Shown here: positions 1,603 to 45,260 of the stretch, in pieces
How positions within the stretch are numbered: the stretch's first letter is position 1
Layout of the letters: every line of letters begins with the position of its first letter
Notes under the pieces: model-generated
What the model was told of the DNA's origin: nothing
Seen by the model: only the letters and a program-made list of their open reading frames with translations
The model's database searches: none
Position numbers and translations under genes: made by a program
Assembly: GCA_017399405.1 (NCBI GenBank)
Contig: JAFQCT010000003.1
Coordinates: 1 to 53,654, forward strand
Source of the DNA: Clostridia bacterium
Lineage (GTDB): Bacteria > Bacillota > Clostridia > Oscillospirales > Acutalibacteraceae
Direction of reading: 5' to 3'
DNA: 53,654 nt

Positions 1603-3624
1603 ATGGCTGATACAAAAGTAATAGTAATACCTGATGGTAAAATATGTGATTATATTGATGGTAAATTCAGAAATGATACTCCTGAAGAATATGTAAGACA
1701 AACAATTGAAAAACGACTTGTAAACGAGCACAAATATTTACTTAAACAAATAAAAATTGAATATACATTGCAGCTTGGCTCACGTAAACCTCGTGCAGAT
1801 ATTGTTGTTTTTGATAAGGATTGTGAAAACCAAACTCAAGAAAATGTTAAATTAATTATTGAGTGTAAAAAAGAATCAGTTGAAGCTCGTAATGCTAAGG
1901 ATGGTGTAGAACAATTAAAATCTTATATGTCTGCTTGTCCTAACTGTGAATGGGGTATGTGGACAAATGGTAAACAGAAAGAAGTCTTTCGTAAGTTTGT
2001 TAATGACAAAGGGCAAATAAACTTTATGGACTATAACGATATTCCCTCAGCAGATGGCAGTTTGGATGATATCAACCGTCCTAAAAGAACATCTTTGAAA
2101 AATGCTTACGATGATAATCTGTTGTTTGTTTTTAAAACTTGCCATAACCATATTCATGTGAACGATGGTTTACAAAAACAACCTGCTTTTTTTGAGTTGT
2201 TAAAGGTTATTTTTTGTAAAATCGAGGATGAACGTAACATTCCAAATCCTCTTGATTTTTACACTACATCCGAAGAGCGTTCAAATCCTGACGGACAGCT
2301 CACTGTCAAAAAACGTATCTCAAAAATATTTGAAAGAGTAAAGAAAAAACACGGCAAGATTTTTGATTCTAACGATGAAATCAAACTTGCACCTCGCAGT
2401 TTAGCTTATATAGTCAGCGAGCTTCAAAAATATAGCCTTCTCAACACAAATATCGACATTAAGGGTAAAGCATACGAGGAAATAGTTGGTGCTAACCTTC
2501 GTGGCGATAGAGGTGAGTTCTTCACCCCTAGAAATGTCATGAAGATGGTTGTTGAAATGATTAACCCGAAAATGGATGAAAGGGTGCTTGACAGTTCCTG
2601 CGGTACGGGCGGATTCTTAGTAACAGCAATGACACACGTGATTGCTGACCTTGAAAGAGAGTTTGCGGCACAAATAGGATGCGAGCGAAAAGATTGGGAC
2701 GGCGATTCAATCAGGGCATTTAACGACCGTATATCAGATATGGCATCACACTATTATTTTGGTTTTGATATTAACCCCGACCTTGTTAAAGCAACAAAAA
2801 TGAATATGGTTATGAACAATGACGGCAGTGGGAATATTCTTCAAACCAATTCACTTTTACCGCCCCATGAATGGACGGATGAATTCCGTGTAAAATTAGC
2901 AGAGGCACTCGGCATAGAAAAAAGCGAGTTAAGAAACCATAACACTATTGCATACTTTGACGTTATTGTTACAAACCCACCTTTCGGCAGTAAAATTCCT
3001 GTTAAGGATAAAAATATTTTGGAGCAGTTTGAGCTGGCTCATATTTGGGAAAACAACAAAAAAACAGGTGTTTGGACTATGACTGATCGTTTGCAGTCTT
3101 CTGTTCCACCTGAAATTCTTTTTATTGAACGTTGTACACAGTTGCTTGTTGAGGGTGGTAGAATGGGAATAGTTCTTCCTGATTCTATTCTTGGTTCTCC
3201 CGGACTTGGTTATATCCGTGAATGGTTAATAAAGAACCATCGTATTGTTGGAAGCATAGATTTGCATGTTGATACATTTCAACCTCGAAATGGTACACAA
3301 ACTTCTGTTCTTTTCTTGCAAAAGAAAACTCAGGAACAGAAAGATGCAGAAGAAAAATCAGGCACAATGGCTGACTATAATATCTTTATGGCTATGGTTG
3401 AAAAAGTTGGTCATGATAAACGAGGAAATCCTGTTTTTAAGAGAGATAAAGAGGGTAATGAAATACTTGTTCCTGATACCAACAGCATCTTAGTCCTTGG
3501 TGAAACAGGAGAAGGGGAACGTACTGTATCTCATCAGCAAAAAAGAAAAGTGGAAGATGATCAGACCCCTGATGTTCCAGCAATCTTTACAGAATGGAAG
3601 AAACAGGAGGGATTAGCGTGGTGA
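1603..3624 (+). CDS. Fused PD-(D/E)xK nuclease / N6-adenine methyltransferase (type I/IIB-like RM subunit)
   Basis: A 673-residue protein. Residues 1-150 resemble the HSDR_N_2 (type I restriction R-subunit N-terminal) domain, with the nuclease signature D66...E87-x-K89 (PRADIVVFD, then LIIECKK). Residues about 270-560 are an HsdM-type methylase: GEFFTPR (304-310), SAM motif I LDSSCGTGGF (about 329-338) and catalytic NPPFG (458-462). This merges cutting and methylating activities in one chain, as in the BcgI (type IIB) RM subunit. No separate hsdR gene is in the window. The stop overlaps the specificity-subunit start (GTGGTGA), indicating translational coupling. Likely a self-contained restriction-modification enzyme acting with the next gene. 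Whether it cleaves, and where, is not shown by sequence. Confidence 0.85.
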   Translation: MADTKVIVIPDGKICDYIDGKFRNDTPEEYVRQTIEKRLVNEHKYLLKQIKIEYTLQLGSRKPRADIVVFDKDCENQTQENVKLIIECKKESVEARNAKDGVEQLKSYMSACPNCEWGMWTNGKQKEVFRKFVNDKGQINFMDYNDIPSADGSLDDINRPKRTSLKNAYDDNLLFVFKTCHNHIHVNDGLQKQPAFFELLKVIFCKIEDERNIPNPLDFYTTSEERSNPDGQLTVKKRISKIFERVKKKHGKIFDSNDEIKLAPRSLAYIVSELQKYSLLNTNIDIKGKAYEEIVGANLRGDRGEFFTPRNVMKMVVEMINPKMDERVLDSSCGTGGFLVTAMTHVIADLEREFAAQIGCERKDWDGDSIRAFNDRISDMASHYYFGFDINPDLVKATKMNMVMNNDGSGNILQTNSLLPPHEWTDEFRVKLAEALGIEKSELRNHNTIAYFDVIVTNPPFGSKIPVKDKNILEQFELAHIWENNKKTGVWTMTDRLQSSVPPEILFIERCTQLLVEGGRMGIVLPDSILGSPGLGYIREWLIKNHRIVGSIDLHVDTFQPRNGTQTSVLFLQKKTQEQKDAEEKSGTMADYNIFMAMVEKVGHDKRGNPVFKRDKEGNEILVPDTNSILVLGETGEGERTVSHQQKRKVEDDQTPDVPAIFTEWKKQEGLAW

Positions 3625-5099
3625 ATAGTAATTTAGCACATAGCCTTAGTTTTGATGGTATTGCTGAGACTAAGATTGACGAAGTTCCCGTAAAATGGTG
3701 TTCTGTATCCCTTTCTGAAATAATAGCAGCAGGAAAACGAATCGATGCAACAACCTTCGATATGGAACTCAAACACGCTAAAAGTGTACTTGAAAAGCTT
3801 GATGTCAAATGCATACCCGTTTCGGGTGAAAACGGTCTTTGTAATGCTTATAGGCCTGGAATTTGCAAAAGAATTTTTGTCGAAAAAAGTGATGATTCTA
3901 TAGAAATGCTTACTCCCTCACAGATAACAGACCTTTACCCTAAAGCAGAAAAATTTTTATCAACTAATATGGCTGACGATATCGCTAATTGGTTTGTAAA
4001 AAAAGGAGAAATACTTTTAACTTGTTCTGGAACTATTGGTAATTTGTCTTATGTTTCAAAGACTTTAAGCGGAAAATGTGTTTCTCAAAATCTCATCCGA
4101 TTAGTACCCAAAGATAATACAATAAGTGGGTATATATACACTTTTCTAAAAAGCAAATTTGGTCAATTATTCTTAACGAGAAACAATTACGGTGCAGTAA
4201 TACAACATATTGATCCGGAGCATCTTGAACAAATATTAATTCCAGATGCAAACAAAGAAACAAAAGAGAAAATTCACAATTTAATCATGAAATCTTTTGA
4301 GCTACGTGATGAATCAAATACATTGATTGACGAAGCAACTTGTTTACTTGTTGAAGAACTAAAATTACCTGCTATTGATGAATTTGAGCAAAACAATATA
4401 AAAAACAAAGCAAATATAAATGCATTTAATGTTAAGTTAAGTGATATGGTTGGACGTGCAGATGCATCATATCATTTACCTATTGTTGATTCAATTGTTG
4501 AACATTTGAAAAAGCATTCTGCCGAAGTGATCACCGTTGGTGATAAAAGAATCAGTAAAAGTGTTATTTTACCCGGAAGGTTTAAAAGAATTTACGTAGA
4601 TGAAGGCTATGGAAGGATTTTTATCGGAGGAAAACAACTTGGTGAACTCGACCCTTCTAATAAAAAATATTTATCGTTAGTTCATCACGGTGCAAGAATT
4701 ACTCAACAACTTGAATTACATGAAAATATGACATTGATTACTTGTAGTGGAACAATAGGCAAAGTCGCAATGGTAGGAAAACAATGGGAAAATTGGACTG
4801 CAAATCAGCACATAATTCGTATTGTTCCAGCAAATGACGATATTGCTGGATATATAAATGTATTTTTATCCTCAGAATACGGATATCAATTAATTAATCG
4901 CTTTACTTATGGTTCAGTAGTTGATGAAATAGATGATAAGCATGTTAGTCAAATCCATATTCCTTTGCTAAAAAACCAATCCGTTCAAACAAAAATCAAT
5001 TCTCTCGCACTTGAAGCCAACGAAAAACGTTACGAGGCATACCTTTTGGAACAAGAGGCATTAAAAATTATGGACGATGAAGTAATTTTCGCAAAATGA
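3618..5099 (+). CDS. Restriction-modification specificity subunit (HsdS-like, two TRDs)
   Basis: About 493 residues with an evident internal duplication. Each half has L(L/I)TCSGTIG, a (Q/H)N/H-I-R-(L/I)VP segment, then GYI..FL.S..G...I.R..YG.V...ID..H..QI.IP. These are two target-recognition domains separated by helical spacers, the plan for subunits that read a bipartite DNA site. I choose GTG at 3618 (or adjacent GTG 3621) because AGGAGG at 3605-3610 gives normal spacing. An upstream ATG at 3594 would put the start before that site. The start overlaps the stop of the methyltransferase gene. It should dictate the sequence read by the fused nuclease-methylase. Confidence 0.85.
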   Translation: MVNSNLAHSLSFDGIAETKIDEVPVKWCSVSLSEIIAAGKRIDATTFDMELKHAKSVLEKLDVKCIPVSGENGLCNAYRPGICKRIFVEKSDDSIEMLTPSQITDLYPKAEKFLSTNMADDIANWFVKKGEILLTCSGTIGNLSYVSKTLSGKCVSQNLIRLVPKDNTISGYIYTFLKSKFGQLFLTRNNYGAVIQHIDPEHLEQILIPDANKETKEKIHNLIMKSFELRDESNTLIDEATCLLVEELKLPAIDEFEQNNIKNKANINAFNVKLSDMVGRADASYHLPIVDSIVEHLKKHSAEVITVGDKRISKSVILPGRFKRIYVDEGYGRIFIGGKQLGELDPSNKKYLSLVHHGARITQQLELHENMTLITCSGTIGKVAMVGKQWENWTANQHIIRIVPANDDIAGYINVFLSSEYGYQLINRFTYGSVVDEIDDKHVSQIHIPLLKNQSVQTKINSLALEANEKRYEAYLLEQEALKIMDDEVIFAK

Positions 5100-6942: not shown

Positions 6943-7296
6943 TGGTGGAGATGGTGGTAATCGAAACCACGTCCGAAAATCTATTCCTGAAACTTTCTAC
7001 GAGTGTAGTTTATCTATTGTCATTCCCTACGGGACAGCCGACAAACAGGCATTCCTTTCAGTAGCCCTGTGATGTGTGACGGACTACAAGGCGGTTATCC
7101 GTTCACATTTACTGCTAAATGACACTCCGTACCGGGCCGCAGTTCTCCCGGGGGGAATGCTCGCTGCTAATTAAGCAGCAAGAAGTACTTTTTCGTTTTT
7201 GTCGTTTATTTTTGATAAACCGTCCGTTTTATAGTGGTCAGACTCCACTACTCGCTTATCGCAGTTCAAAATCCCCGTCGAAATCCTTTCATCCCC
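6943..7296 (-). ncRNA. ssrA: tmRNA (transfer-messenger RNA)
   Basis: On the minus strand the RNA begins GGGGATGAAAGGATTTCGACGG and ends in CATCTCCACCA. The 5' GGGGAUG pairs with 3' CAUCUCC to form the acceptor stem and CCA is encoded. The internal tag reading frame ends NDKNEKVLLAA followed by TAA TTA, and the pseudoknot-rich middle is typical. The length is about 354 nt. It frees ribosomes stalled on broken mRNA, with SmpB. The mature 5' end lies 3 bases after the stop codon of the gene at 7300-7917, so its promoter must overlap that gene or it is processed from a common transcript. The 3' side abuts the mobile island. Confidence 0.95.
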
Positions 7297-11060: not shown

Positions 11061-11200
11061 TGCCTTAACTCAGTCATGTGTCGTGCAGGCAGACTGTGGC
11101 GCCCGGTGCAAACCGCTTAATGCTGCTCGGTTCCCCGCCTGACATGGTTCACAGCGCCCCGCCGCACAGGACCCACACGGCACACGACTGAATTAAGGCA
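11061..11200 (-). ncRNA. ffs: Signal recognition particle RNA (small bacterial type)
   Basis: The minus-strand RNA folds on itself: the 5' GCCTTAATTCAGTCGTGTGCCGTG and 3' region CATGACTGAGTTAAGGC pair end to end, and the apex holds the conserved helix 8 loop TGTCAGGCGGGGAACCGAGCAGCA. It binds Ffh to target membrane proteins. At about 140 nt it appears to lack a long Alu domain. Position upstream of dnaX is typical for Firmicutes. Ends are judged from pairing, so they are approximate. Confidence 0.93.
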
Positions 11201-33030: not shown

Positions 33031-33064
33031 AAGGACTCAACTATTCTGTTGAGTCCTTGTTTTT
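33031..33064. terminator. Bidirectional terminator (AAGGACTCAAC type, copy 2)
   Basis: Arms 33031-33041 and 33048-33058, then GTTTTT. Stem identical to copy 1; only the 6-base loop differs. Confidence 0.88.
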
Positions 33065-34343
33065 ATTCATTTGCGATTTTGAATGCTTCTTCTGTTGCGA
33101 GGGCAAGTTTTGTAACTATGTCCTTTTTCTTTGTCATACAGTAGAATGAATCATTTGTAGTTGAAATTTCAAAACAATCGGCACCTTCAAGTTGATTAAA
33201 TCCATACTCAATATGCAAACTGTAAAGACCTTTTGTTGGTCGCGCTATTCTATAATCGTGACCGTTATAGTGTCCCTCAATTACAAAACCATTTTCTAAA
33301 TCGTGAGTAACCACACCTTTGCCCAAAGGCACATAGTCATTCACATTCGGTTGGGAAACAATTTCAACTTCTTCTTTGTAACTGTATTTGCCTTGCAAAA
33401 GTTCATTTCGTACATTTTCTCGTTCCCATTTATACCAATCAGGGATATGCGAAAACTCTGTTTCGCCATTTAAGGCTTTAAGTTCGCCCAATGTAGTCAT
33501 TTCCCACTTTTTACCACATTCTTCGCAGAAAAGGTGAATACCTTTTGTGTTCATTTTGTGTTCTGTATTACAAGCGGGGCATTGATAAAGTACTTTGTGA
33601 AGCCCCTCTGCACGCTTTTTGTGTTTGATAATAATGTTATTATCCTTTTGCCACTTAAAATCATCATAGGTCATTTCTTCACGGATAACCGCGTTGATTT
33701 CATCAACAGTCATACTTTCAACTTGTTCAGCAGTTAATACTTGCTTTACTGTTGCATTAAAAGGTGATTTTCTGTAAGTGTAATCTGCCCAGAACGGTAA
33801 ATTCAAGTAGTTTCCGTGATTAAGCATAACTACAAGTGGCACGCCATTCTTTTTAACAAGTTTGCCGATAGCATCAGGCAAAACGGATTGTGTTCCGTCA
33901 GGGGTATATCTTGCTTCGGGATACATACAGAATACATCGCCATACTCTTTAAGAACCTTTTTACAAGAACGAACAAGTGCAGTATCAGTAGTAAACTTGT
34001 GAGTACAGATACAACCTGCTTTTTCCATAATTTTAGGGAAAAGGTGGAACACATTAAACGCTGCAACCACATTAACTTTGTGTGGATATGTTGCTCTGAA
34101 AAGCATAGCAAAATCCATAAACTGCATATGATTTGCAAGTAAAATGTATGGTGGCTTTAAGCCATCCATATTGATTTTTTCGATTTTATAACCTGCTCTG
34201 ACAAGAGACAAAATTGCAGAAGAAAGTCTGTAAGCACCTTTTGTAATTTTGTCAGGTTGCTTGGCAGGAACTTTACCCACAGCAGAACGCTCAATTCCAT
34301 CCGGGTAAACTATTTCTGTTAAAAAATCTCTTGAGTTGTTCAT
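33063..34343 (-). CDS. PlsC-like acyltransferase with zinc ribbon (copy 2)
   Basis: 426 residues. The acyltransferase core has the H-x4-D motif in LLANHMQFMDFAM and a MYPEARY block matching the PEGTR site. A Cys4 zinc ribbon follows (CPACNTEHKMNTKG, then CEECGKKW, about residues 255-285) and a C-terminal domain with HYNGHDYRIARPTKGLYSLH. The zinc ribbon after PlsC is unusual. It may acylate glycerol phosphates or a related acceptor at the membrane; substrate unknown. AAGGTGA precedes the ATG, 11 bases after its paralog. Confidence 0.82.
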   Translation of the reverse strand: MNNSRDFLTEIVYPDGIERSAVGKVPAKQPDKITKGAYRLSSAILSLVRAGYKIEKINMDGLKPPYILLANHMQFMDFAMLFRATYPHKVNVVAAFNVFHLFPKIMEKAGCICTHKFTTDTALVRSCKKVLKEYGDVFCMYPEARYTPDGTQSVLPDAIGKLVKKNGVPLVVMLNHGNYLNLPFWADYTYRKSPFNATVKQVLTAEQVESMTVDEINAVIREEMTYDDFKWQKDNNIIIKHKKRAEGLHKVLYQCPACNTEHKMNTKGIHLFCEECGKKWEMTTLGELKALNGETEFSHIPDWYKWERENVRNELLQGKYSYKEEVEIVSQPNVNDYVPLGKGVVTHDLENGFVIEGHYNGHDYRIARPTKGLYSLHIEYGFNQLEGADCFEISTTNDSFYCMTKKKDIVTKLALATEEAFKIANE

Positions 34344-34354
34344 AATTTGTCACC

Positions 34355-35653
34355 TTATTCAGCTTTTTTGCTGACAGTTGGCATAGTTGCAATTTTATAC
34401 GCTTCTTCAGTTGCAAGCATAAGTTTTGTAACAACATCTTTTTGTCTTGGAATGCAATAGAAAGAGTTGTCTTTAACCGAAACATCAAAACAATCAACTT
34501 TGCCAAGTTTTTTGAATGCAAATTCGTTATGTAATGTATAAAGGGTTTTTGTCTGTCTTTGAATTCTGTAATCGTGACCATTATAGTGGCCTTCAATTAT
34601 AAATCCGTTCTGGAAATCGTGTGTAACCTTTGCTTCGCCTATAGGAATATATTCAAGACCGGGCATTGAATATACAGGTAAAGTTTCTTCATAATAATAT
34701 GTACCGTCAAGAATTTCTTGGCGTACGCATTCACGCTCCCACTCATACCAGTCAGGAATATGCGAAAACTCAGTTTCACCCTCAAGTGCTTTAAGTTCGC
34801 CAAGTTCGGTGTACTCCCAAACCTTGCCACATTCTTCGCAAGTAAGGTGTATGCCTTTACCTACTGTTTTGCCCTCTGCCATACAGTGTGGGCATTTGTA
34901 AAGGACTTTATTAAGACCATCTGCACGGAAATCTTCAGTAATTTTAATATTGTTTTCTTTCTGCCAAGCGTGGTCATCATAATACATTTCTTCACGGATT
35001 ACTTCGTTGATTTCGTCAGCGGTCATTTCTTCAATCTGCTCAACTGTGAGGACTTGCTTCATAGTTGAATAGAACGGAACTTTTCTGTATTGACGGAAAT
35101 CCCAGAATGGTGCATTAAGGTAGTGACCGTGATTAAGAAGTATTACAACAGGAACTTTGTTTTTCTTAACAAGTTTGCCCACAACATCGGGGATAATCGC
35201 AGTTGTACCAACATTTGAGTAACGAGCCTCAGGATACATACAAAGAACATCACCATATTCATGAAGCACTTTATGGCAAGCACGGACAAGGCTTAAATCG
35301 GTTGTGTATTTTCTGTGGCAAGCACAACCTAATTCTGTCATAACCTTTTCAAAACCTATGAATCCGTCAAGAGTAGCAATATTATTGATTTTATGTGGGT
35401 GTAACGCCTTGTAACATGTGAAGAAATCTACAAATTGATTGTGATTGCAAAGCACAATGAAAGGTGGTTTAAGGTTTTCAACATCGCCAATTTTCTCAAG
35501 TTTAGTGCCACCGCGGACAATAAATTTAAGAATAAAGCGTGAAATATTATATACAAGCCCCGCATAAAAGTCGTTTTGTCTTTTAGGCATAATAGGGGGT
35601 ACAGTTATTTTTTTATCTTCGGGATATACGATATAATCCAAAATCTCATTCAT
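34355..35653 (-). CDS. PlsC-like acyltransferase with zinc ribbon (copy 1)
   Basis: 432 residues from ATG 35653 (GGGTGA upstream; a longer frame to 35713 lacks a ribosome binding site). Same order as copy 2: VLCNHNQFVDFF (H-x4-D), MYPEARY, zinc ribbon CPHCMAEGK...CEECGKVW, C-terminal HYNGHDYRIQRQTKTLYTLH. The two proteins are tandem paralogs, identical in plan and diverged in sequence, so an old duplication retained for separate roles. Follows the pseudouridine synthase gene on the same strand. Confidence 0.82.
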   Translation of the reverse strand: MNEILDYIVYPEDKKITVPPIMPKRQNDFYAGLVYNISRFILKFIVRGGTKLEKIGDVENLKPPFIVLCNHNQFVDFFTCYKALHPHKINNIATLDGFIGFEKVMTELGCACHRKYTTDLSLVRACHKVLHEYGDVLCMYPEARYSNVGTTAIIPDVVGKLVKKNKVPVVILLNHGHYLNAPFWDFRQYRKVPFYSTMKQVLTVEQIEEMTADEINEVIREEMYYDDHAWQKENNIKITEDFRADGLNKVLYKCPHCMAEGKTVGKGIHLTCEECGKVWEYTELGELKALEGETEFSHIPDWYEWERECVRQEILDGTYYYEETLPVYSMPGLEYIPIGEAKVTHDFQNGFIIEGHYNGHDYRIQRQTKTLYTLHNEFAFKKLGKVDCFDVSVKDNSFYCIPRQKDVVTKLMLATEEAYKIATMPTVSKKAE

Positions 35654-35719
35654 AAAATCACCCGTTTGTAACCAATTTGTAACTATTTTACCATAATGTC
35701 CAAAAAATATCAAGTGGAG

Positions 35720-36765: not shown

Positions 36766-39312
36766 ATGAATATTTTTGATACAGTTTATGAAATAAACGC
36801 GAAGCACCCTCACAAGCGAGCTATGTCAATCGGTCTTGATAACGGTGGCAAGCGTGTTTATACTTACGGACAAGTGTTTGAAAAAGTTGAAAAGTACGCA
36901 GAGGCACTTGTGAATGCAGGCGTCAAGGCGGGGGACAGAATCGCTTTTGTTGCAGAAAGTTGTCCTGAATGGACTATTGCGTTTCTTGCATCTTGCAAAA
37001 TCCGTTGTACTGCGGCACTTATTGACGCTTCACTTGCAGGCGATGATTTAGACGAATTTATTACTCGTTCAGATGTGCGTGCAGCGTTCATTTCACAAAC
37101 TGCACACGAAAAATTAGGTGATGTTGCTAAATACAAATTCCCATTTTTTAATGTGCTTGACTGCTCACTTTTTGAGGACTCTGCAAAGGTTGTTTCGGCT
37201 GATTTGCCCGAAAGTACCGATACAGACGAAAATGTTGCTTGTATTATTTTCTCGTCAGGTACAACTCGCAAGGCAGCGGGGATTATGCACTACCACGAGA
37301 GCCTTATCAAGACAACTCAAATGACATTAAAAGTGCAGAAAATTACTGAAGATGCACGATTTCTTGCAATTCTTCCAAACAGCCATATTTACGGTGTGAT
37401 TTGTCTTGTTTTAGGCCCTGCACTTTCAGGTTCCGATGTGCATTATATTGAAACTATTGCTGCTGAGGCAATTCTTGGGGCATTCTCGGAGTATCATCCA
37501 ACAGTTTTACCAGCAGTGCCAAAGGTTTATGAACTTTTCAGAACAGCAGTGCTTCGTAAAATTAACTCAAAGCCTGCTACAAGGATTATGTTCGAAAAAT
37601 TCTTCCCGATTTGCCTTAAAGCAAGAAGAAAGAACGGTTCGTTACTTGGCAAAAAACTCTTTAAGAGTATTCACGAGGGCTTTGGCGGTTCACTCCAATT
37701 CCTTTGCTCTGCAGGTGCTCCGTTAAGTCAAGAGGTTGCCGATTTCTATTACGGTACAGGTTTTAATCTTCTTATTACATACGGTGCAAGCGAAACAAAT
37801 ATTCCTACAATCGGTAATGTTGAGGGGGATATTCATACCGACTCTTGCGGTAAACCATACCCTGACATTCAGGTTGATTTCACTGATGATGGCGAGTTGC
37901 TTATTAAGTCGCCATATATGATGAAAGGTTATTTTCGTGACGAAGAAGCCACAAAAGAGGCATTTACTGAAGACGGTTGGTTTAAGACCGGTGACCTTAC
38001 AGTACGCGATAGCGAGGGTAACATTAAAATTGTTGGTCGTTCAAAAGAAAATATTGTTCTTTCAACGGGTAAAAAGGTCACTCCTGACGATTTAGAGGCT
38101 AAATATACAGGTCTTGAGGGTGTTAAAGAACTTGTAATTTGCGGTGTTCCCGCTGAAAACAAAGACCACGATGAAATCCACGCCTTTATTGTTGCCGAAG
38201 CACAGGAATTACGCGAAAAAATTGAAGAGCAAATTCGCGAAAAGGGTGCAGTTGTTGCACAGAATATGCGAATTTTCAAAACTCACTTTATAAATGAAAT
38301 ACCAAGAACCTCTTTGCAAAAAGCAAAAAGATATCTTCTTAAAAAGCAAGCAATTGAGGAGCGTAACGGAGAAGTGAAAGTTGAAGAAACTCCTATAGAA
38401 AATATGGACTTACTTTCACAAGTTATTCGTATAATTGCCAATATTTCAGGTGCACCGGTATCACAAATCAATGAAGATACAAAGATTTTTACAGACCTCT
38501 CCTTTGACTCGTTAAGTTCAGTTGACTTGGCTATGGAAATTGAAAGCGTATATAATGTAAATGTTGAAAGTGCTTATTCAAAAACTATGACAGTTAAAGA
38601 TTTGGTTGTTGCTATTGAAAAGGGTGAAACAACTGAAACTGAAACAACAGATACGGGCATTTACCCACAAGAAAAGACAGATGCTGATTACAAGACATAC
38701 GCAAAGTTTAGAGACTTTGCAAAATCTTGCTATAATATCAATATTAAAAATGCAGAGAATATGCCAACAGATAAGGGCTTTATTATCTGTGCAAACCATG
38801 TTTCAAAAATCGACTATCTTTTTGTTTCAATGGCATTTACAAAAGAGCGATTTATGAAACTTTGCTGTATGGCGAAAAAAGAACTTTTCCGTAACGATGC
38901 GTTCAGCAAAAAACTCATTAAGGCTACGGGCATGGTGCCAGTTGACCGTGGCGGAATGAATATGAACACAATGAACAGTCTTAAAGCAAAACTTAAAGAA
39001 GGTTGGTGTGTGCTTATTCACCCTGAAGGCACAAGAAGTGCAGATGGTATTTTCCGTGAAATCAAGAGCGGTGCATCGGTACTTGCTATTGATGCAGGGG
39101 TTCCTGTTGTTCCCGTTTACATTAACGGTGCATACGAGTTGTTCCCTAAAGGCAAAAAGATGATGAAGTTCTATGACACAAAGAACAAGAAAAAATTCAA
39201 TGTTGATGTTGTGTTTGGCGAAGTGATTTCATCTGACGGAAAAACAACTGAAGAATTGACAAGCGAAATTCAGGAAGCAATCTTAAAATTGCAGAATGAA
39301 TGCCGAAAATAA
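36766..39312 (+). CDS. Three-module acyl-activating enzyme - ACP - PlsC acyltransferase
   Basis: 848 residues with three domains in order. Residues 1-530: AMP-binding adenylation domain with ATP loop IIFSSGTTRKAAG (160-172), YGASETN (339-345), GWFKTGD (404-410) and the C-terminal lysine region SLQKAKRYL. Residues about 545-620: acyl carrier domain with attachment Ser582 in FDSLSSVDLA. Residues about 640-848: PlsC domain with H678-x4-D683 (CANHVSKID) and HPEGTRSADG. It could activate a fatty acid, hold it on its own carrier and pass it to a lysolipid or other acceptor, recalling Aas with an added ACP. The acceptor is unknown. Confidence 0.85.
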   Translation: MNIFDTVYEINAKHPHKRAMSIGLDNGGKRVYTYGQVFEKVEKYAEALVNAGVKAGDRIAFVAESCPEWTIAFLASCKIRCTAALIDASLAGDDLDEFITRSDVRAAFISQTAHEKLGDVAKYKFPFFNVLDCSLFEDSAKVVSADLPESTDTDENVACIIFSSGTTRKAAGIMHYHESLIKTTQMTLKVQKITEDARFLAILPNSHIYGVICLVLGPALSGSDVHYIETIAAEAILGAFSEYHPTVLPAVPKVYELFRTAVLRKINSKPATRIMFEKFFPICLKARRKNGSLLGKKLFKSIHEGFGGSLQFLCSAGAPLSQEVADFYYGTGFNLLITYGASETNIPTIGNVEGDIHTDSCGKPYPDIQVDFTDDGELLIKSPYMMKGYFRDEEATKEAFTEDGWFKTGDLTVRDSEGNIKIVGRSKENIVLSTGKKVTPDDLEAKYTGLEGVKELVICGVPAENKDHDEIHAFIVAEAQELREKIEEQIREKGAVVAQNMRIFKTHFINEIPRTSLQKAKRYLLKKQAIEERNGEVKVEETPIENMDLLSQVIRIIANISGAPVSQINEDTKIFTDLSFDSLSSVDLAMEIESVYNVNVESAYSKTMTVKDLVVAIEKGETTETETTDTGIYPQEKTDADYKTYAKFRDFAKSCYNINIKNAENMPTDKGFIICANHVSKIDYLFVSMAFTKERFMKLCCMAKKELFRNDAFSKKLIKATGMVPVDRGGMNMNTMNSLKAKLKEGWCVLIHPEGTRSADGIFREIKSGASVLAIDAGVPVVPVYINGAYELFPKGKKMMKFYDTKNKKKFNVDVVFGEVISSDGKTTEELTSEIQEAILKLQNECRK

Positions 39313-40276: not shown

Positions 40277-41083
40277 TTATTTTGCCAATGCACCGACTTC
40301 AAGCATAAATCCGCCAAGCTGTGCACCAAATTCAGGGCCGCCTTCCATAATGAGCTTACCTGCTTTTGTTGATTCAAGCATATCGTCTGTGCTTAAAAGA
40401 ATACCAAGTGCTGACTCAAGACAGTCGAAACGGAGTGTGAAGAAAGGCATTGCTCTCTTATACTCACCACGACCTGCTCTTGATTTACCTGCTTTGATAC
40501 GAATAAAAGCAGAAACTTCTGGGTGATTATCAACTGCAAAAGCGTAAACACGGTCAGGGCTCTTTGTAGTCCAATCCTTGATTTCAGGATGGCCTAACTT
40601 GTTAAGCTGACTGATACCGCTTGAAAGAAGATAGAAGAAGCACTTAACCATAAGTACCTGTGTTTCTTCATCTTTTGGAGCAGCAGTAGCACCTGTAAGT
40701 GCTGAAAGCTTAAGAAGTGTCATAAGCATTGCCTTGAAAGCACCAAAGCTCTTGAATACGCCTTTCATCTTAGGAAGAGTAGCTGGACCCATTTTACCCT
40801 TGAAGAAACCGTTCATTGCTTCAATAGTTTTGAACTCAAGTTCAACATCCGGTGCTTCGTGTGCAGAGTCAAGCTTTGTTTCCCATTCACCATCAGTAAT
40901 GATGAAATGAGTAGCATATTTTCCACCCGGAGCATCAGCGTCAAGTGCACTTACCTGAAGCACCGCGTTCATACCATCAAATTGTTTTTTAAGTGATGGT
41001 ACATCATTTGCGATAACCTTCAAGAGTGGCAATGCAGCATTGAAAAATATTTTTGATGCATAAAGTTCATTTTGTTCGTGCAT
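40277..41083 (-). CDS. SCP2-like lipid-binding protein (operon gene 5)
   Basis: 268 residues from ATG 41083 (AAAGAGAG upstream). The N-terminal half has an SCP2 sterol-carrier-like core: THFIITDGEWETKL, then APDVELEFKTIEAMNGFFKGKMG, the pattern of a strand pair followed by the x-L-x-G-K helix. The C-terminal half continues with a long helical and beta section. SCP2 domains bind fatty acyl or other hydrophobic ligands in a tunnel. No signal peptide. It closes a five-gene operon, 33 bases after the transketolase gene. The ligand is unknown. Confidence 0.68.
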   Translation of the reverse strand: MHEQNELYASKIFFNAALPLLKVIANDVPSLKKQFDGMNAVLQVSALDADAPGGKYATHFIITDGEWETKLDSAHEAPDVELEFKTIEAMNGFFKGKMGPATLPKMKGVFKSFGAFKAMLMTLLKLSALTGATAAPKDEETQVLMVKCFFYLLSSGISQLNKLGHPEIKDWTTKSPDRVYAFAVDNHPEVSAFIRIKAGKSRAGRGEYKRAMPFFTLRFDCLESALGILLSTDDMLESTKAGKLIMEGGPEFGAQLGGFMLEVGALAK

Positions 41084-41116
41084 ATTATCAACTCTCTTTC
41101 TGAACAATGAAGTAGA

Positions 41117-42124
41117 TTATACTTCGTCGTCCCAGTTATCGTCTTCTTCAAAGTCTGCGTTCATCATTTCGCGAACAGATGCAATAATACCGTTAGCGTC
41201 GATGCCTGCGTCAGCCATAATATCTTCTTGAAGACCAATCATTGCAAAGCTCTTATGACCAAGCATCTTGAATGCACAACCCTTACCGTACTGAGCCATA
41301 ACTTCAGCAACTGCTGAACCAAGACCGCCTGTTACAAGATGGTCTTCTACTGTTACGATTCTTCTTGTGTCAGAAATTGCCTTCTGAATTGCCTCAACAT
41401 CAATTGGGCTGATTGTGTGCATATTAAGAACGCGAACGCTGAGTCCGTCATTTTTCTTAAGGAAGTCAGCTGCCTGCTTTGCCTGGAATACGCAAGAACC
41501 GCAAGCAATAACTGTAATATCTGTACCTTCACAGATTTCAACAGCCTTACCAACCTCAAAGCCATAGTCCTGATTTTCATAAAGAACGCGGTCAAAACCA
41601 CGGTTAATACGAATATAGTAAGGACCAAAGTTATCATAAGCTGCGTTAACTGCGTTTGCTGTTTCAAAACCGTCAGCAGGAACGATAACTGTAAGGTTTG
41701 GCATTGCTCTTGTGATTGCAAGGTCAGTAATAGCGTGGTGAGTTGAACCTGCCTGACCGAATGATGTACCTGAGTGTGTAGCAATAATTTTTGCGTTTAC
41801 ATTCTGGTAGCAAATGTCTGTGTGAAGTTGGTCACAAGCACGCATTGATGTGAATGCAGAGAAACCTGAAAGGAAAGGAATCATACCTGCTCTTGCCATA
41901 CCTGCTGCAACACCAAACATATCTTGTTCTGCAATACCAACATTGATAACTCTTTCAGGACAAACCTTAAGAACATCACCAAGTTTTGTTGATTTTGCAA
42001 GGTCAGCTGTAATAGCAACAACCTTAGGGTCTTTCAAAATAATGTCGGCAAGTGCCTTACCGTAAATTTCTGCTGTAGAAAGTGCAGTCTGGTCAACTGC
42101 TGTATAAACAAATCCGCCTGCCAT
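41117..42124 (-). CDS. Transketolase-like protein, C-terminal half
   Basis: 335 residues covering the pyrimidine-binding and C-terminal domains of transketolase. It has NVGIAEQDMFGVAAGMA with the catalytic Glu that activates thiamine diphosphate, THSGTSFGQAGSTHHA, and a C-terminal Rossmann-like part (VTVEDHLVTGGLGSAVAE). It would form a heterotetramer with the N-terminal half coded 3 bases upstream. Split transketolases in such operons often act on special sugars and not in the housekeeping pentose pathway. The sugar substrate is unknown. Confidence 0.9.
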   Translation of the reverse strand: MAGGFVYTAVDQTALSTAEIYGKALADIILKDPKVVAITADLAKSTKLGDVLKVCPERVINVGIAEQDMFGVAAGMARAGMIPFLSGFSAFTSMRACDQLHTDICYQNVNAKIIATHSGTSFGQAGSTHHAITDLAITRAMPNLTVIVPADGFETANAVNAAYDNFGPYYIRINRGFDRVLYENQDYGFEVGKAVEICEGTDITVIACGSCVFQAKQAADFLKKNDGLSVRVLNMHTISPIDVEAIQKAISDTRRIVTVEDHLVTGGLGSAVAEVMAQYGKGCAFKMLGHKSFAMIGLQEDIMADAGIDANGIIASVREMMNADFEEDDNWDDEV

Positions 42125-42126
42125 AA

Positions 42127-43008
42127 TTATTTACCCTCCTTTTCTGCTCTTGCAACTCTTGCTGCATAGTCCTCGTCAAGTTCTTTGTTGAACTTTTCAA
42201 ACATTGCATCGTCAATTGCACCATAGTGCCATGTGTAGTCGCCTTCAATTGACTTGATACCTGCACCTTTCTTTGTATCCATAAGAATACATGTAGGATT
42301 CTGAGGTGTCTTTGCTCTTTCGATTGCAACATCAATAGCATCACAAAGTTCGCCAATGTTGTTACCGTCAACAACGATTGTGTTGAAACCGAAGGCTGTC
42401 ATCTTGTCAGCAAGTGGTTCAAGCTTCATAATGTCTTCTGTGTTACCGTCAATCATATTGTGGTTTCTATCGATAAATACGATACAGTTAGAAAGGTTGT
42501 AGTGATTCATTGTCATAAAACCTTCCCAGCATGAGCCTTCACCAAGCTCACCGTCACCAGTAACTACATATGTAAGGAAATCTTTGTTCATAAGTCTTGC
42601 TGCAAGTGCTGTACCTGCTGCGATTGATGGACCGTGACCGAGAGAACCTGTTGAAGCGTCAACGCCTACAACTTTGTTTGAGTCAAGGTGCATACCCATT
42701 TTTGAACCTGAAAGGTTAAATGATTTAAGCATTTCAACATCGTTGAATCCCTTGTCGCAAAGTACAGGAGCATAAGCGATTGCTGCGTGACCTTTTGAAA
42801 GAATAAATCTGTCACGGTCATCCCATTTTGGTTCGTCAACTTTAATGTTGAGATACTTGTGATAAAGAACTGTGAGAAGGTCCATAACACTCATACCGCC
42901 GCCAAAGTGTCCGCTACCTGCCCAAACTGTTGTCTGTACGCAAAGTTTACGGAGTTCAAGGGCTTTCTTTTCGAGCTGGAGCCATTCTGCTTTTGATAAA
43001 TTAGCCAT
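42127..43008 (-). CDS. Transketolase-like protein, N-terminal half
   Basis: 293 residues: thiamine diphosphate-binding domain with GSGHFGGGMSVMD, RFILSKGHAAIAYAP, the motif GDGELGEGSCWE and the distal Asn in IDRNHNM (metal and diphosphate site). It pairs with the C-terminal half directly downstream. GAGGGAAAATT precedes ATG 43008. A GC-rich hairpin at 43039-43058 lies just upstream, within the operon. Transfers two-carbon ketol units between sugar phosphates or related aldehydes. Confidence 0.9.
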   Translation of the reverse strand: MANLSKAEWLQLEKKALELRKLCVQTTVWAGSGHFGGGMSVMDLLTVLYHKYLNIKVDEPKWDDRDRFILSKGHAAIAYAPVLCDKGFNDVEMLKSFNLSGSKMGMHLDSNKVVGVDASTGSLGHGPSIAAGTALAARLMNKDFLTYVVTGDGELGEGSCWEGFMTMNHYNLSNCIVFIDRNHNMIDGNTEDIMKLEPLADKMTAFGFNTIVVDGNNIGELCDAIDVAIERAKTPQNPTCILMDTKKGAGIKSIEGDYTWHYGAIDDAMFEKFNKELDEDYAARVARAEKEGK

Positions 43009-43038
43009 AATTTTCCCTCCAAGAAAATTTTTATTAGA

Positions 43039-43058
43039 AGCGGGGTCCCCGCCCCGCT
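43039..43058 (-). repeat. GC-rich palindrome inside the operon
   Basis: AGCGGGG/CCCCGCT arms with a 6-base centre lie between the aminotransferase and transketolase genes. It lacks a clean T-run and may act as a partial terminator, an mRNA processing block, or be a dispersed repeat. Confidence 0.5.
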
Positions 43059-43071
43059 ATAATTTGTTTGA

Positions 43072-44340
43072 TTAGCCTCTTAATTCTGGGTGATTCTTTG
43101 CAACTACTGAGAATGCGTCTTCAGCAATTTCAATAGACTTCTTAATATCTTCTTCTGTAAGAGAAGCGTTAATGAAGTGGTTGTGGTGAGATGTGATAAA
43201 CAAACCACGGTTTACACATTCTGCAACCCACTCCTGATGAAGCATAAGGTTATCATCGTTAGCAATTCTCAAGTAGAAGAGTGCAGGTTCACCTGAAACA
43301 CGAAGGTCAAAACCGTGTTCTGCACCAGCTGCTTTGAATCCGTCAGTAACCATTTTACCGAGTCTGCGGAACATTGTTGGTGTGTCAAGAGCTTTCATCT
43401 TGTTGATACAAGCAATACAAGCAGCAAAAGGAACAGCACTCATCCAGTAAGAACCTGTGTATGTAATACCTGAAACAGTTGCTTTCATATGTTCGCCACC
43501 GCAAAGTGCTGACATATTGTAACCGTTAGCAAGTGCTTTACAGAAACAAATAAGGTCTGCTTTGAAACCATAGAAGTGGTCAGAACCTGCAAGGTCAAGA
43601 CGGAAACCTGCACGAACATCGTCAATAATAAGAACAACACCGTGGTCGTCACACCATTTACGAACTGCCTGCCAGTATTCCTTTGAAGCAACTTCGTTAT
43701 CTTTGAAGTTACCGTGGTCATAAGGCTGTGCAATAAGACCTGCAATATCACCGTTGTTATCGTCATAAGCCTTTTGAAGAGCATCAAGGTCAAACCAAGG
43801 AACGATAACATTGTTTGCTACATCTTCAGGAGTAATGCCTGGGTAGTCAATTTTCTGTGCCCATGGGAAATCTCCGTGGTAGTAGTATTTTAAGAAAATA
43901 ATCTTTTTCTTATGTGTATGTGCTCTTGCTGCCATTGTTGCAAGAGTTGTTGTATCAGAACCGTTCTTGCAGAAGAATGCCCAGTCAGCACAAGCAACTG
44001 TATCAACAAGAGTTTCAGCACACTCAACCATAACCTTGCCCGGTGCAGTTGTGCAGTTACCGAGTTTAAGCTGTGCAAGGGCTGCAGCGTCAACATCAGG
44101 GTCGTTGTAACCTAAAACATTAGGACCGTAAGCACACATATAGTCAATGTATTTGTTACCGTCAACATCCCAGAAGTATGAACCCTGTGCTTTTTCTGAG
44201 AAAGATGGCCATCTGTTAACAGGAATCCACTGACCTTCAGCAGGACCTAAGTGACCGTAAATACCGCCTGGAATAACCTGTGATGCACGGTTAAACATTT
44301 CACGGCTTTTTGTAGTATCAAATGTTGGGAATTTACTCAT
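43072..44340 (-). CDS. Class III PLP aminotransferase (glutamate-1-semialdehyde aminomutase-like)
   Basis: 422 residues from ATG 44340 (AAGGAGG upstream; a longer frame overlaps the previous gene). Fold type I class III features: GNKYIDYMCAYGPNVLGY, CKNGSDTTTLATMAARA for the PLP phosphate, IIDDVRAGFR with D240, and Lys268 in FCKALANGYN as the Schiff-base lysine. Members interconvert amino and keto groups, often on semialdehydes or sugars. Heme genes are absent nearby, so a role in heme synthesis is unlikely. With split transketolase downstream it suggests an amino-sugar or amino-ketone route (inference). Confidence 0.85.
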   Translation of the reverse strand: MSKFPTFDTTKSREMFNRASQVIPGGIYGHLGPAEGQWIPVNRWPSFSEKAQGSYFWDVDGNKYIDYMCAYGPNVLGYNDPDVDAAALAQLKLGNCTTAPGKVMVECAETLVDTVACADWAFFCKNGSDTTTLATMAARAHTHKKKIIFLKYYYHGDFPWAQKIDYPGITPEDVANNVIVPWFDLDALQKAYDDNNGDIAGLIAQPYDHGNFKDNEVASKEYWQAVRKWCDDHGVVLIIDDVRAGFRLDLAGSDHFYGFKADLICFCKALANGYNMSALCGGEHMKATVSGITYTGSYWMSAVPFAACIACINKMKALDTPTMFRRLGKMVTDGFKAAGAEHGFDLRVSGEPALFYLRIANDDNLMLHQEWVAECVNRGLFITSHHNHFINASLTEEDIKKSIEIAEDAFSVVAKNHPELRG

Positions 44341-44353
44341 TTTTGCGTCCTCC

Positions 44354-45118
44354 TTATGCAAGATATAATGCAACTCTGTCAAGAATACGGTTTACATTGT
44401 CAACCATTGAGATAAGACCACGAATTGTGATGTTACCGTTACCAACATGGTCGATTGAGTTAACTGTACCTGCGAAAAGTGCATTTGCAAGAGGAATATC
44501 ACAGAATTCCATAATTGCACGAGGTTTGTCAGCTGCTTGCTTAATAGTAATCATATGATGGTCTTTAACACGGATTGTTGCATAAACTTCGTTTGTAATG
44601 CCAATCTGGATATCACCGTCAACAATGTTTGATGCACTGAATTTACCAATAGCATCCTGATTACCAATCTGTGAAAGAGCAACTGATACTGTGTAGAATG
44701 TGCAAAGAGTGTTGAGCTTGAAGAAGTCCATATCTTTAAGAGCTTCTTCAGATGGTCTCATAACTTCTGTAAGTCTGTCAGTAAGTGCTGTAAAGGTTTT
44801 AAGAAGGAAGTTAACCTTTGTAAGACCTTTTGTTGGGATTGGTGTTGCTTTGCCATCAATAATTGCGTTGAACTTGTCACAGTTAGCAACAGGAATTTTG
44901 ATGTCGCAATCAGCGTTTACGCCATCGTCCATACGGCAACCGTTTTTAGAGAATGTAAGTGTAGCACTTGGACCGTTCTTAACATCAAAAGCCACTGAAA
45001 TTGGTTTTTCAATAGTAGAAATAATTTCTTTTGCTTTGTCGTCAAGTTCGCAAAGATTTTCCAATGTGCCAAGCACTGCGTACATATTTATGTAAGCAAG
45101 TGTTCTTGAATCAGTCAT
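44354..45118 (-). CDS. SCP2-like lipid-binding protein (operon gene 1)
   Basis: 254 residues. A central SCP2-like core reads ISVAFDVKNGPSATLTFSKN, then DCDIKIPVANCDKFNAIIDGKA, followed by a long helical part and a second strand-rich section (IQIGITNEVYATIRVKDHH). It resembles the protein at the other end of the operon in plan, though not closely in sequence. It probably binds a hydrophobic ligand in the cytoplasm. AAGGAGG precedes ATG 45118, and a TATAAT-type -10 lies at 45173-45168 on the minus strand. First gene of the operon. Confidence 0.68.
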   Translation of the reverse strand: MTDSRTLAYINMYAVLGTLENLCELDDKAKEIISTIEKPISVAFDVKNGPSATLTFSKNGCRMDDGVNADCDIKIPVANCDKFNAIIDGKATPIPTKGLTKVNFLLKTFTALTDRLTEVMRPSEEALKDMDFFKLNTLCTFYTVSVALSQIGNQDAIGKFSASNIVDGDIQIGITNEVYATIRVKDHHMITIKQAADKPRAIMEFCDIPLANALFAGTVNSIDHVGNGNITIRGLISMVDNVNRILDRVALYLA

Positions 45119-45260
45119 TTTTCGTTCCTCCTTATATGGAAATTTTCGTATATCGTGACCGAAAACTATTATACATTATAAGAATACCAAAAAAATGCAG
45201 TTAAATCAAGGAAAAATACTGAAATTTTCACAAAAAGTTAATGATTTTTTAGAATATATG

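Follow-up and report, generated by a model that had tools for sequence, protein, structure and literature searches.

The window analysed here, i.e., a stretch of 53,654 nt from the Clostridia bacterium (Acutalibacteraceae) assembly GCA_017399405.1 (contig JAFQCT010000003.1), holds a module of five minus-strand open reading frames (ORFs) that are transcribed in the order E-D-C-B-A from position 45118 to 40277. The module consists of two sub-modules, E-D and C-B-A, in which an aminotransferase dependent on pyridoxal phosphate (PLP) and a two-chain transketolase, respectively, are each joined with an SCP2-like partner of their own. This five-gene architecture is well supported. Tentatively, we propose that the module codes for a pathway in which the head of a long-chain 2-amino-1,3-diol lipid is processed in two steps. 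Gene content, gene order, co-inheritance, SCP2 folds, FumI kinship and residue losses were computed, and from there we infer the substrate, the direction and the carrier role of the SCP2-like proteins. The genome assembly of the window comprises 1.96 Mb with a completeness of 97.5%.

Gene E (44354..45118) encodes a tandem SCP2-like protein of 254 aa, the partner of D. Gene D (43072..44340) encodes a FumI-type class III PLP aminotransferase of 422 aa when read from its ATG; its ORF opens at TTG 44382, and ATG 44340 is the likelier start. The transketolase is divided between gene C (42127..43008, 293 aa; PF00456 with 8.8e-40), i.e., the N-terminal half that binds thiamine diphosphate (ThDP), and gene B (41117..42124, 335 aa; PF02779 with 1.1e-38 and PF02780 with 9.2e-26), i.e., the C-terminal half. 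Gene A (40277..41107) encodes the second tandem SCP2-like protein, a paralogue of E and the partner of the transketolase, with 276 aa from TTG or 268 aa from an alternative start at ATG 41083. The gaps are 13 bases from E to the ATG of D, 63 between D and C, 2 between C and B, and 9 or 33 between B and A. All five ORFs are at the positions given in a first-pass annotation of the window made from the sequence alone, and its description of a tight minus-strand packing and of a transketolase split in two chains is borne out as well.

With regard to conservation, across one set of 150 genomes from the family, gene E is found in 37, gene A in 36 and gene D (E-value <=1e-60) in 38. Every genome with A also holds E (36/36), and the only genome with E and without A is G077 (G and L numbers are our own labels for genomes and loci), in which the contig ends just past D. 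Gene order and strand are identical in all 37 five-gene loci compared, which comprise 12 of the 15 from our search of assembly contigs (L027, L034 and L055 were left out) and 25 others (22 + 3); some of these 37 may represent one species present in two collections. Three of them belong to two other families (gene E 28-36% identical). In these two families, the cassette keeps its order in L121 and L122 (gene E 36% identical), L124 (28%) and L126 (24%; the contig ends inside B). Judged by the counts in the 150 genomes, the arrangement is not due to chance. Among 23 stretches read (20 family genomes with 15-19.5 kb each, the window, and two stretches of G022), flanking protein families recur in three at most, and the cassette is therefore made up of these five genes. 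A wider operon that includes the gene at 36766-39312 was considered and rejected, because kin of that gene adjoin the module in only 2/41 loci (L017, L019).

The division into sub-modules is visible in the 41 loci of the assembly-contig search, where D adjoins E in every case. Of these loci, 16 continue with a transketolase, and 15 show all five genes, complete or partial. The remaining 25, mostly from other lineages, show E-D with no transketolase beside it, and four end at D or at most 0.8 kb past it. The five genes thus stay together within the family but not everywhere, and one of the two outcomes that the first-pass annotation had named as refuting has occurred in part. Whole-genome searches in 17 of the 41 find A in all three that bear the transketolase and in none of the 14 with E-D only; these searches covered A and not the operon-type transketolase itself. 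In genome G022, E-D and C-B-A are placed on separate contigs with different neighbours around each. Furthermore, the D-C gap is the widest within the cassette (median 75 vs. 2, 6 and 29 for the other gaps, 37 loci). Given the E-D-only loci, the split in G022 and the wide D-C gap, we assign E to D and A to the transketolase. For these comparisons tblastn coordinates were used, since greedy gene calling took some antisense frames in G+C-rich loci such that cluster counts of C, B and D are too low there.

A profile search of 398 genomes of the phylum finds gene E in seven, including the window's own genome, and among 296 genomes around Cryobacterium it is found in one, that of Cryobacterium itself; a named bearer of E-D is Cryobacterium arcticum SK-1. 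The loci with the closest E (88-96% identical) come from metagenome-assembled genomes of Clostridia, of which five of six are titled as gut of yak, sheep, water deer, roe deer or buffalo. The E-D-only loci that were read show no constant neighbour, except for a short-chain dehydrogenase and a TetR-like gene in two Actinomycetota: in L053 (893-4520) and L054 (8462-12063) the dehydrogenase (Pfam), the TetR-like gene, E and D stand in a row with no transketolase beside them. TetR-like genes adjoin A or E in L053, L054, L110, L112, L121 and L122, where Pfam backs the assignment for L121 only. In L121 and L122 the TetR family gene is located directly 3' of A and is a candidate regulator.

The aminotransferase D matches Aminotran_3 (7.1e-37, Pfam), and the Lys268 and Asp240 that the first-pass annotation had pointed out (422-aa numbering) are near-invariant. 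When compared with the PDB, its best solved relative is FumI (6hbs; 313 bits, 2.7e-92), followed at a distance by glutamate-semialdehyde aminomutases (145 bits) and sugar C-6' aminotransferases (100 bits at best). A survey of 66 D sequences, restricted to homologues longer than 380 aa and free of stops, yields 66 near-invariant positions. D and FumI share H30, K125, N126, H209, R243, T295, S297, W299, H386, N387 and F389, all in contrast to the second class III enzyme of the genome, which served as a single comparison. A tree of 32 rows (without L045_D and L080_D) separates D and FumI from that second enzyme with 100/100, albeit with long-branch warnings. Within it, FumI and its plasmid kin form one clade (99/99) and 20 D rows another (100/100); the outgroup row from L089 groups with the aldolase-linked class III enzyme and is not shown to be HemL. 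Judged by closest kin and family-specific active-site residues, D is predicted to be a FumI-type aminotransferase. Its assignment as glutamate-1-semialdehyde aminomutase (HemL) was rejected, with scores of 194 vs. 398 bits (NF000818) and 180 vs. 527 bits (TIGR00713). GntE is the top NCBIfam row and lies far under its cut-off (201 vs. 525 bits).

FumI is the aminopentol aminotransferase of Sphingopyxis sp. MTA144 in fumonisin degradation and has the same class III PLP fold as D. With hydrolysed fumonisin B1, it transfers the amine at C2 to pyruvate, as described in the accessible part of PMC2933618, and fumonisins are said to resemble sphinganine in that of PMC9858248. FumI differs from D in that it falls into a clade separate from the main D clade and is part of a fumonisin gene cluster, while D has an adjoining SCP2 partner and, in 16/41 loci, a transketolase. 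Two further aminotransferase neighbourhoods were observed. In L064, an Agrobacterium plasmid, a FumI-like aminotransferase is located one gene from a fused 2-oxoacid dehydrogenase alpha/beta, i.e., in another aminotransferase-ThDP neighbourhood. A second kind of class III aminotransferase stands beside a tandem class II aldolase in L089 (2626-5548), L107 (4354-7085; Pfam) and L114 (4245-7013). This pair is present elsewhere in the window's genome and is found directly upstream of E, divergently oriented, in L107 and L114.

The joined C-B pair matches human transketolase with 2.2e-79 and has all of the PP, Pyr and C-terminal domains. We compared 44 operon-type sequences in human numbering, i.e., 39 sequences from operons (the window's and those of 38 loci), four copies that belong to two other families, and the copy of G022. 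The residues H37, H77, H110, D155, N185, K244, H258, E366 and H416 are kept in 39/39, in all four distant copies and in G022. We take Arg101, Arg318, Asp424, Ser345, His416 and Arg474 to be sugar-phosphate contact residues. The first three of these are all absent in 43/44 sequences: in the 39 operon sequences, Arg101 is replaced by Asn, Asp424 by Ala, and Arg318 by Ala, Ser or Thr (in the window's gene B, both Arg318 and Asp424 are Ala), and the four copies from other families also lack all three, with Gly or Ala at 318. By contrast, the genome's own second split transketolase pair keeps Arg101, Arg318 and Asp424, and ordinary copies keep Arg318 and Asp424 in 30/30, all of them from the window's genus and thus one lineage. 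These residue patterns mark the operon enzyme as transketolase-like and not an ordinary transketolase.

A housekeeping role, which the first-pass annotation had linked to a sole copy, was rejected, given that second split pair with canonical residues. The genome has three Transketolase_N matches, of which one reads as DXS. An ordinary-type transketolase is held by 35/37 genomes of the genus, and in 34/37 there is a second copy about 40-44% identical to the ordinary one, whose match to the operon copy was checked in G000 and G098 only. A DXS-like enzyme with pyruvate as donor was likewise rejected, since the operon enzyme has His110 and His258 where the genome's DXS-like protein has Phe and Tyr. 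Given these two histidines, the donor should be a ketol and not pyruvate. Asp424 presumably corresponds to Asp469 of the E. coli enzyme. The latter has been changed by protein engineering such that propanal and non-polar aldehydes are admitted, and His100 was altered to have transketolase accept pyruvate (both in the accessible parts of PMC5073344 and PMC10787763). The split transketolase of Carboxydothermus hydrogenoformans (6yaj/6yak) has the same two-chain architecture as C-B. According to the alignment printed in the available part of PMC7661550, it keeps the equivalents of Arg318 and Asp424, which the operon enzyme has both lost, and it differs from the latter also in that only the operon enzyme has an SCP2 protein of its own.

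For the proteins E and A at the two ends, the first-pass annotation had suggested SCP2-like proteins and structure prediction as a means to check this. Their structure models indeed show SCP2 folds, apparently two each, and the proteins are paralogues. On the other hand, neither matches Pfam SCP2 (PF02036) at E-values <=1, a model that does match another gene of the genome, nor is there an NCBIfam match at this threshold or a useful family name from Pfam, NCBIfam or PHROGs. That is, the predicted SCP2 assignment rests on structure. UbiJ of ubiquinone synthesis and the C-terminal domain of the alkylsulfatase SdsA1 share the fold matched in E and A, and in UbiJ and other SCP2-domain helpers it presents a hydrophobic substrate to an enzyme. 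Similarly, E and A may bind the lipid by its alkyl chain and offer the head group, each to its own enzyme. Unlike UbiJ and SdsA1, they are tandem, do not match the Pfam model, and serve an aminotransferase and a transketolase.

Within the proposed pathway, the substrate would be a sphingoid base, e.g., sphinganine or phytosphingosine, or a closely similar compound. In a first step, D together with E would swap the C2 amine for a ketone to give a 1,3-dihydroxy-2-keto lipid. Since a 1,3-dihydroxy-2-ketone is the head of a transketolase ketose, C-B could remove the C1-C2 ketol unit. In this second step, supported by A, the C2-C3 bond would be cleaved into a fatty aldehyde and a two-carbon ketol unit, and the latter would be passed on to an aldose (phosphate). 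With still less confidence, we consider it possible that the module represents a lipid-dedicated transketolase system, i.e., that gut and environmental Bacillota cleave or assemble sphingoid bases at C2-C3, with transamination followed by ThDP-dependent ketol transfer and with one tandem SCP2 shuttle per enzyme that holds the lipid. The carbons of the lipid head would then enter the pentose phosphate pool directly.

A catabolic or detoxifying direction seems likelier. In its favour, the D step is found by itself, while C-B-A, as followed through A, is not found without E-D; the absence of A from all 14 E-D-only genomes, along with the 36/36 co-occurrence of A with E, fits D as a first and independently useful step. 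The direction also agrees with the gene order, the TetR-like genes at six loci, and an association with ceramidase-like genes (PF04734). The latter are found in 20/37 genomes with E vs. 7/113 without (Fisher 1.5e-9, phylogeny ignored), or in 14 vs. 4 when restricted to matches over the curated cut-off (5e-7, phylogeny ignored). Counted by genus, the numbers are 18/30 vs. 6/105. This association is suggestive only. LuxC shows no link to E, being present in 2/37 E-positive vs. 8/113 E-negative genomes.

Several observations weigh against a sphingoid-base pathway as proposed. Most PF04734 matches are weak and partial, with only that of G040 near full length. Several of the respective genes have neighbours that look, by eye, like cell-wall recycling genes, and PF04734 finds no match in the genome of the window. 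D is only 38% identical to FumI, and the most distant D copies (L124-L126) fall outside the main D clade, at a place that the tree leaves open with regard to FumI. The plasmid relatives of D (14 records, 34-40% identical) are located in unlike contexts in the five that were read, so that FumI kinship leaves the substrate unfixed. Concerning the transketolase, Arg318 is still present in the divergent copy of G022, next to Asn at position 101 and Ser at position 424. Asn at 101 is also found in the genome's DXS-like protein. Ser345, His416 and Arg474 are kept, such that the second substrate may still be a sugar phosphate. Finally, transketolase normally makes 3S ketols and natural sphingoid bases are 3R. 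The residue at the Asp424 position presumably governs the C3 stereopreference, and its loss could relax the preference for 3S.

Some ceramidase-like genes were observed in further surroundings. L160 and L161 contain several paralogues of about 490-640 aa beside genes similar to MurNAc-6-P (N-acetylmuramic acid 6-phosphate) etherase and NamZ (by eye), and these proteins are perhaps hydrolases of acylated amino sugars rather than ceramidases. In L159 (7685-16686) of the module-positive genome G102, genes for a GH30 hydrolase, an MCRA-family protein and a ceramidase-like protein are clustered (Pfam).

The same reactions can be read in reverse, i.e., the transketolase would add a C2 ketol to a fatty aldehyde and D would aminate the product, so that sphingoid bases would be formed independently of serine palmitoyltransferase. 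In principle, both reactions can run either way. Engineered transketolases are reported to join non-polar aldehydes (accessible parts of PMC5073344 and PMC10787763), and the Clostridia species Flavonifractor plautii is reported to make phytosphingosine, for which the available text of PMC11914097 leaves the genes unnamed. Such a synthesis is unlikely, however: E-D often occurs without the transketolase (25/41 loci, with A in 0/14 such genomes), which would be odd if D were the last step, LuxC as a possible source of aldehyde does not co-occur, and the cassette holds no acylating or head-group gene.

It is rather unlikely, too, that the module acts on another hydrophobic amino-ketone or amino-alcohol, e.g., a host- or plant-derived or secondary lipid, instead of a sphingoid base. 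SCP2 folds bind varied hydrophobic ligands, the plasmid relatives of D stand in varied contexts, and the transketolase changes say only that the tail of the acceptor or donor is not a normal sugar phosphate. FumI, however, the closest relative found with a tested substrate, acts on a C2 amine beside a C3 hydroxyl, and this is exactly the unit that would be open to cleavage by a transketolase once the amine is removed. A carbohydrate or amino-sugar route, in which the SCP2-like proteins would be structural or scaffolding and bind no lipid, appears very improbable. The retained phosphate-site residues Ser345, His416 and Arg474 would suit it, and in other systems both class III aminotransferases and split transketolases take part in sugar routes. 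Yet, D is far from sugar aminotransferases (100 vs. 313 bits), Arg101, Arg318 and Asp424 are all lost in 43/44 sequences, and two dedicated tandem SCP2 proteins would be left unexplained. The amino-sugar option of the first-pass annotation is thus not upheld, given that, among PDB entries, D is much nearer to FumI than to enzymes for sugars or semialdehydes and that the transketolase lost sugar-phosphate acceptor residues; its idea of a hydrophobic substrate is supported as probable.

With regard to known systems, sphingosine-1-phosphate lyase consumes sphingoid bases, as proposed for our module, and breaks the same bond, C2-C3. It does so as a PLP enzyme on the phosphate, while the cut proposed here would be made by ThDP after deamination. 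SphBC of Pseudomonas aeruginosa also consumes sphingoid bases; it is composed of a periplasmic cytochrome and an oxidase (accessible part of PMC11893366), unlike the proposed ThDP cut. Within openly available full texts (subscription literature being outside the scope), we found no paper that links transketolase with sphingoid bases or that ties SCP2, transketolase and aminotransferase together in Clostridia, nor one on an alternative sphingolipid route of gut Clostridia that resembles the module. This agrees with the first-pass annotation, which had called the five-gene unit undescribed. We know of no natural transketolase that acts on lipids. That is, the enzyme families are known, and the combination, the enzyme-specific tandem SCP2 partners and a naturally fixed change of the acceptor pocket are undescribed as far as our searches reach.

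Regulatory signals around the module were screened as well. An AAGGAGG ribosome-binding site is located directly 5' of the ATG of E. Upstream of E, a candidate promoter TTAACT-18-TATAAT (45175..45204, minus strand) has 10/12 matches; it is weak, given 13 promoter-like sites found vs. 12.6 expected in shuffles. The D-C gap, i.e., the boundary of the two sub-modules, contains a GC-rich inverted repeat (43039..43058) that is terminator-like on the plus strand only, with five such repeats found vs. 4.0 expected. No riboswitch or other Rfam element near the module reaches the gathering scores. Elsewhere in the window, Rfam identifies a tmRNA (transfer-messenger RNA; 6943-7296) and a small SRP (signal recognition particle) RNA (11080-11178). 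Positions 1603-5099 read by eye as type I restriction-modification-like methyltransferase and specificity genes. Two adjacent acyltransferase-like proteins (33063-34343 and 34355-35713) are related to each other, i.e., clustered together, and show by eye a zinc-ribbon-like Cys stretch. The gene at 36766-39312, convergent with the operon, encodes a fused AMP-binding, acyl-carrier and acyltransferase protein (Pfam).

Even with another substrate, a five-gene cassette whose order is kept across several families is a clear target, and enzyme-specific SCP2 chaperones are a testable idea. The transketolase provides natural enzymes altered at the acceptor-pocket site that protein engineers altered by hand. 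If the proposed pathway is true, it would constitute a sphingoid-base route that is independent of both serine palmitoyltransferase and sphingosine-1-phosphate lyase. Many records of module-bearing Clostridia are from herbivore guts (by record title), and the pathway would bear on the use of plant, host and bacterial sphingolipids by gut bacteria and on their resistance to these antibacterial amines.

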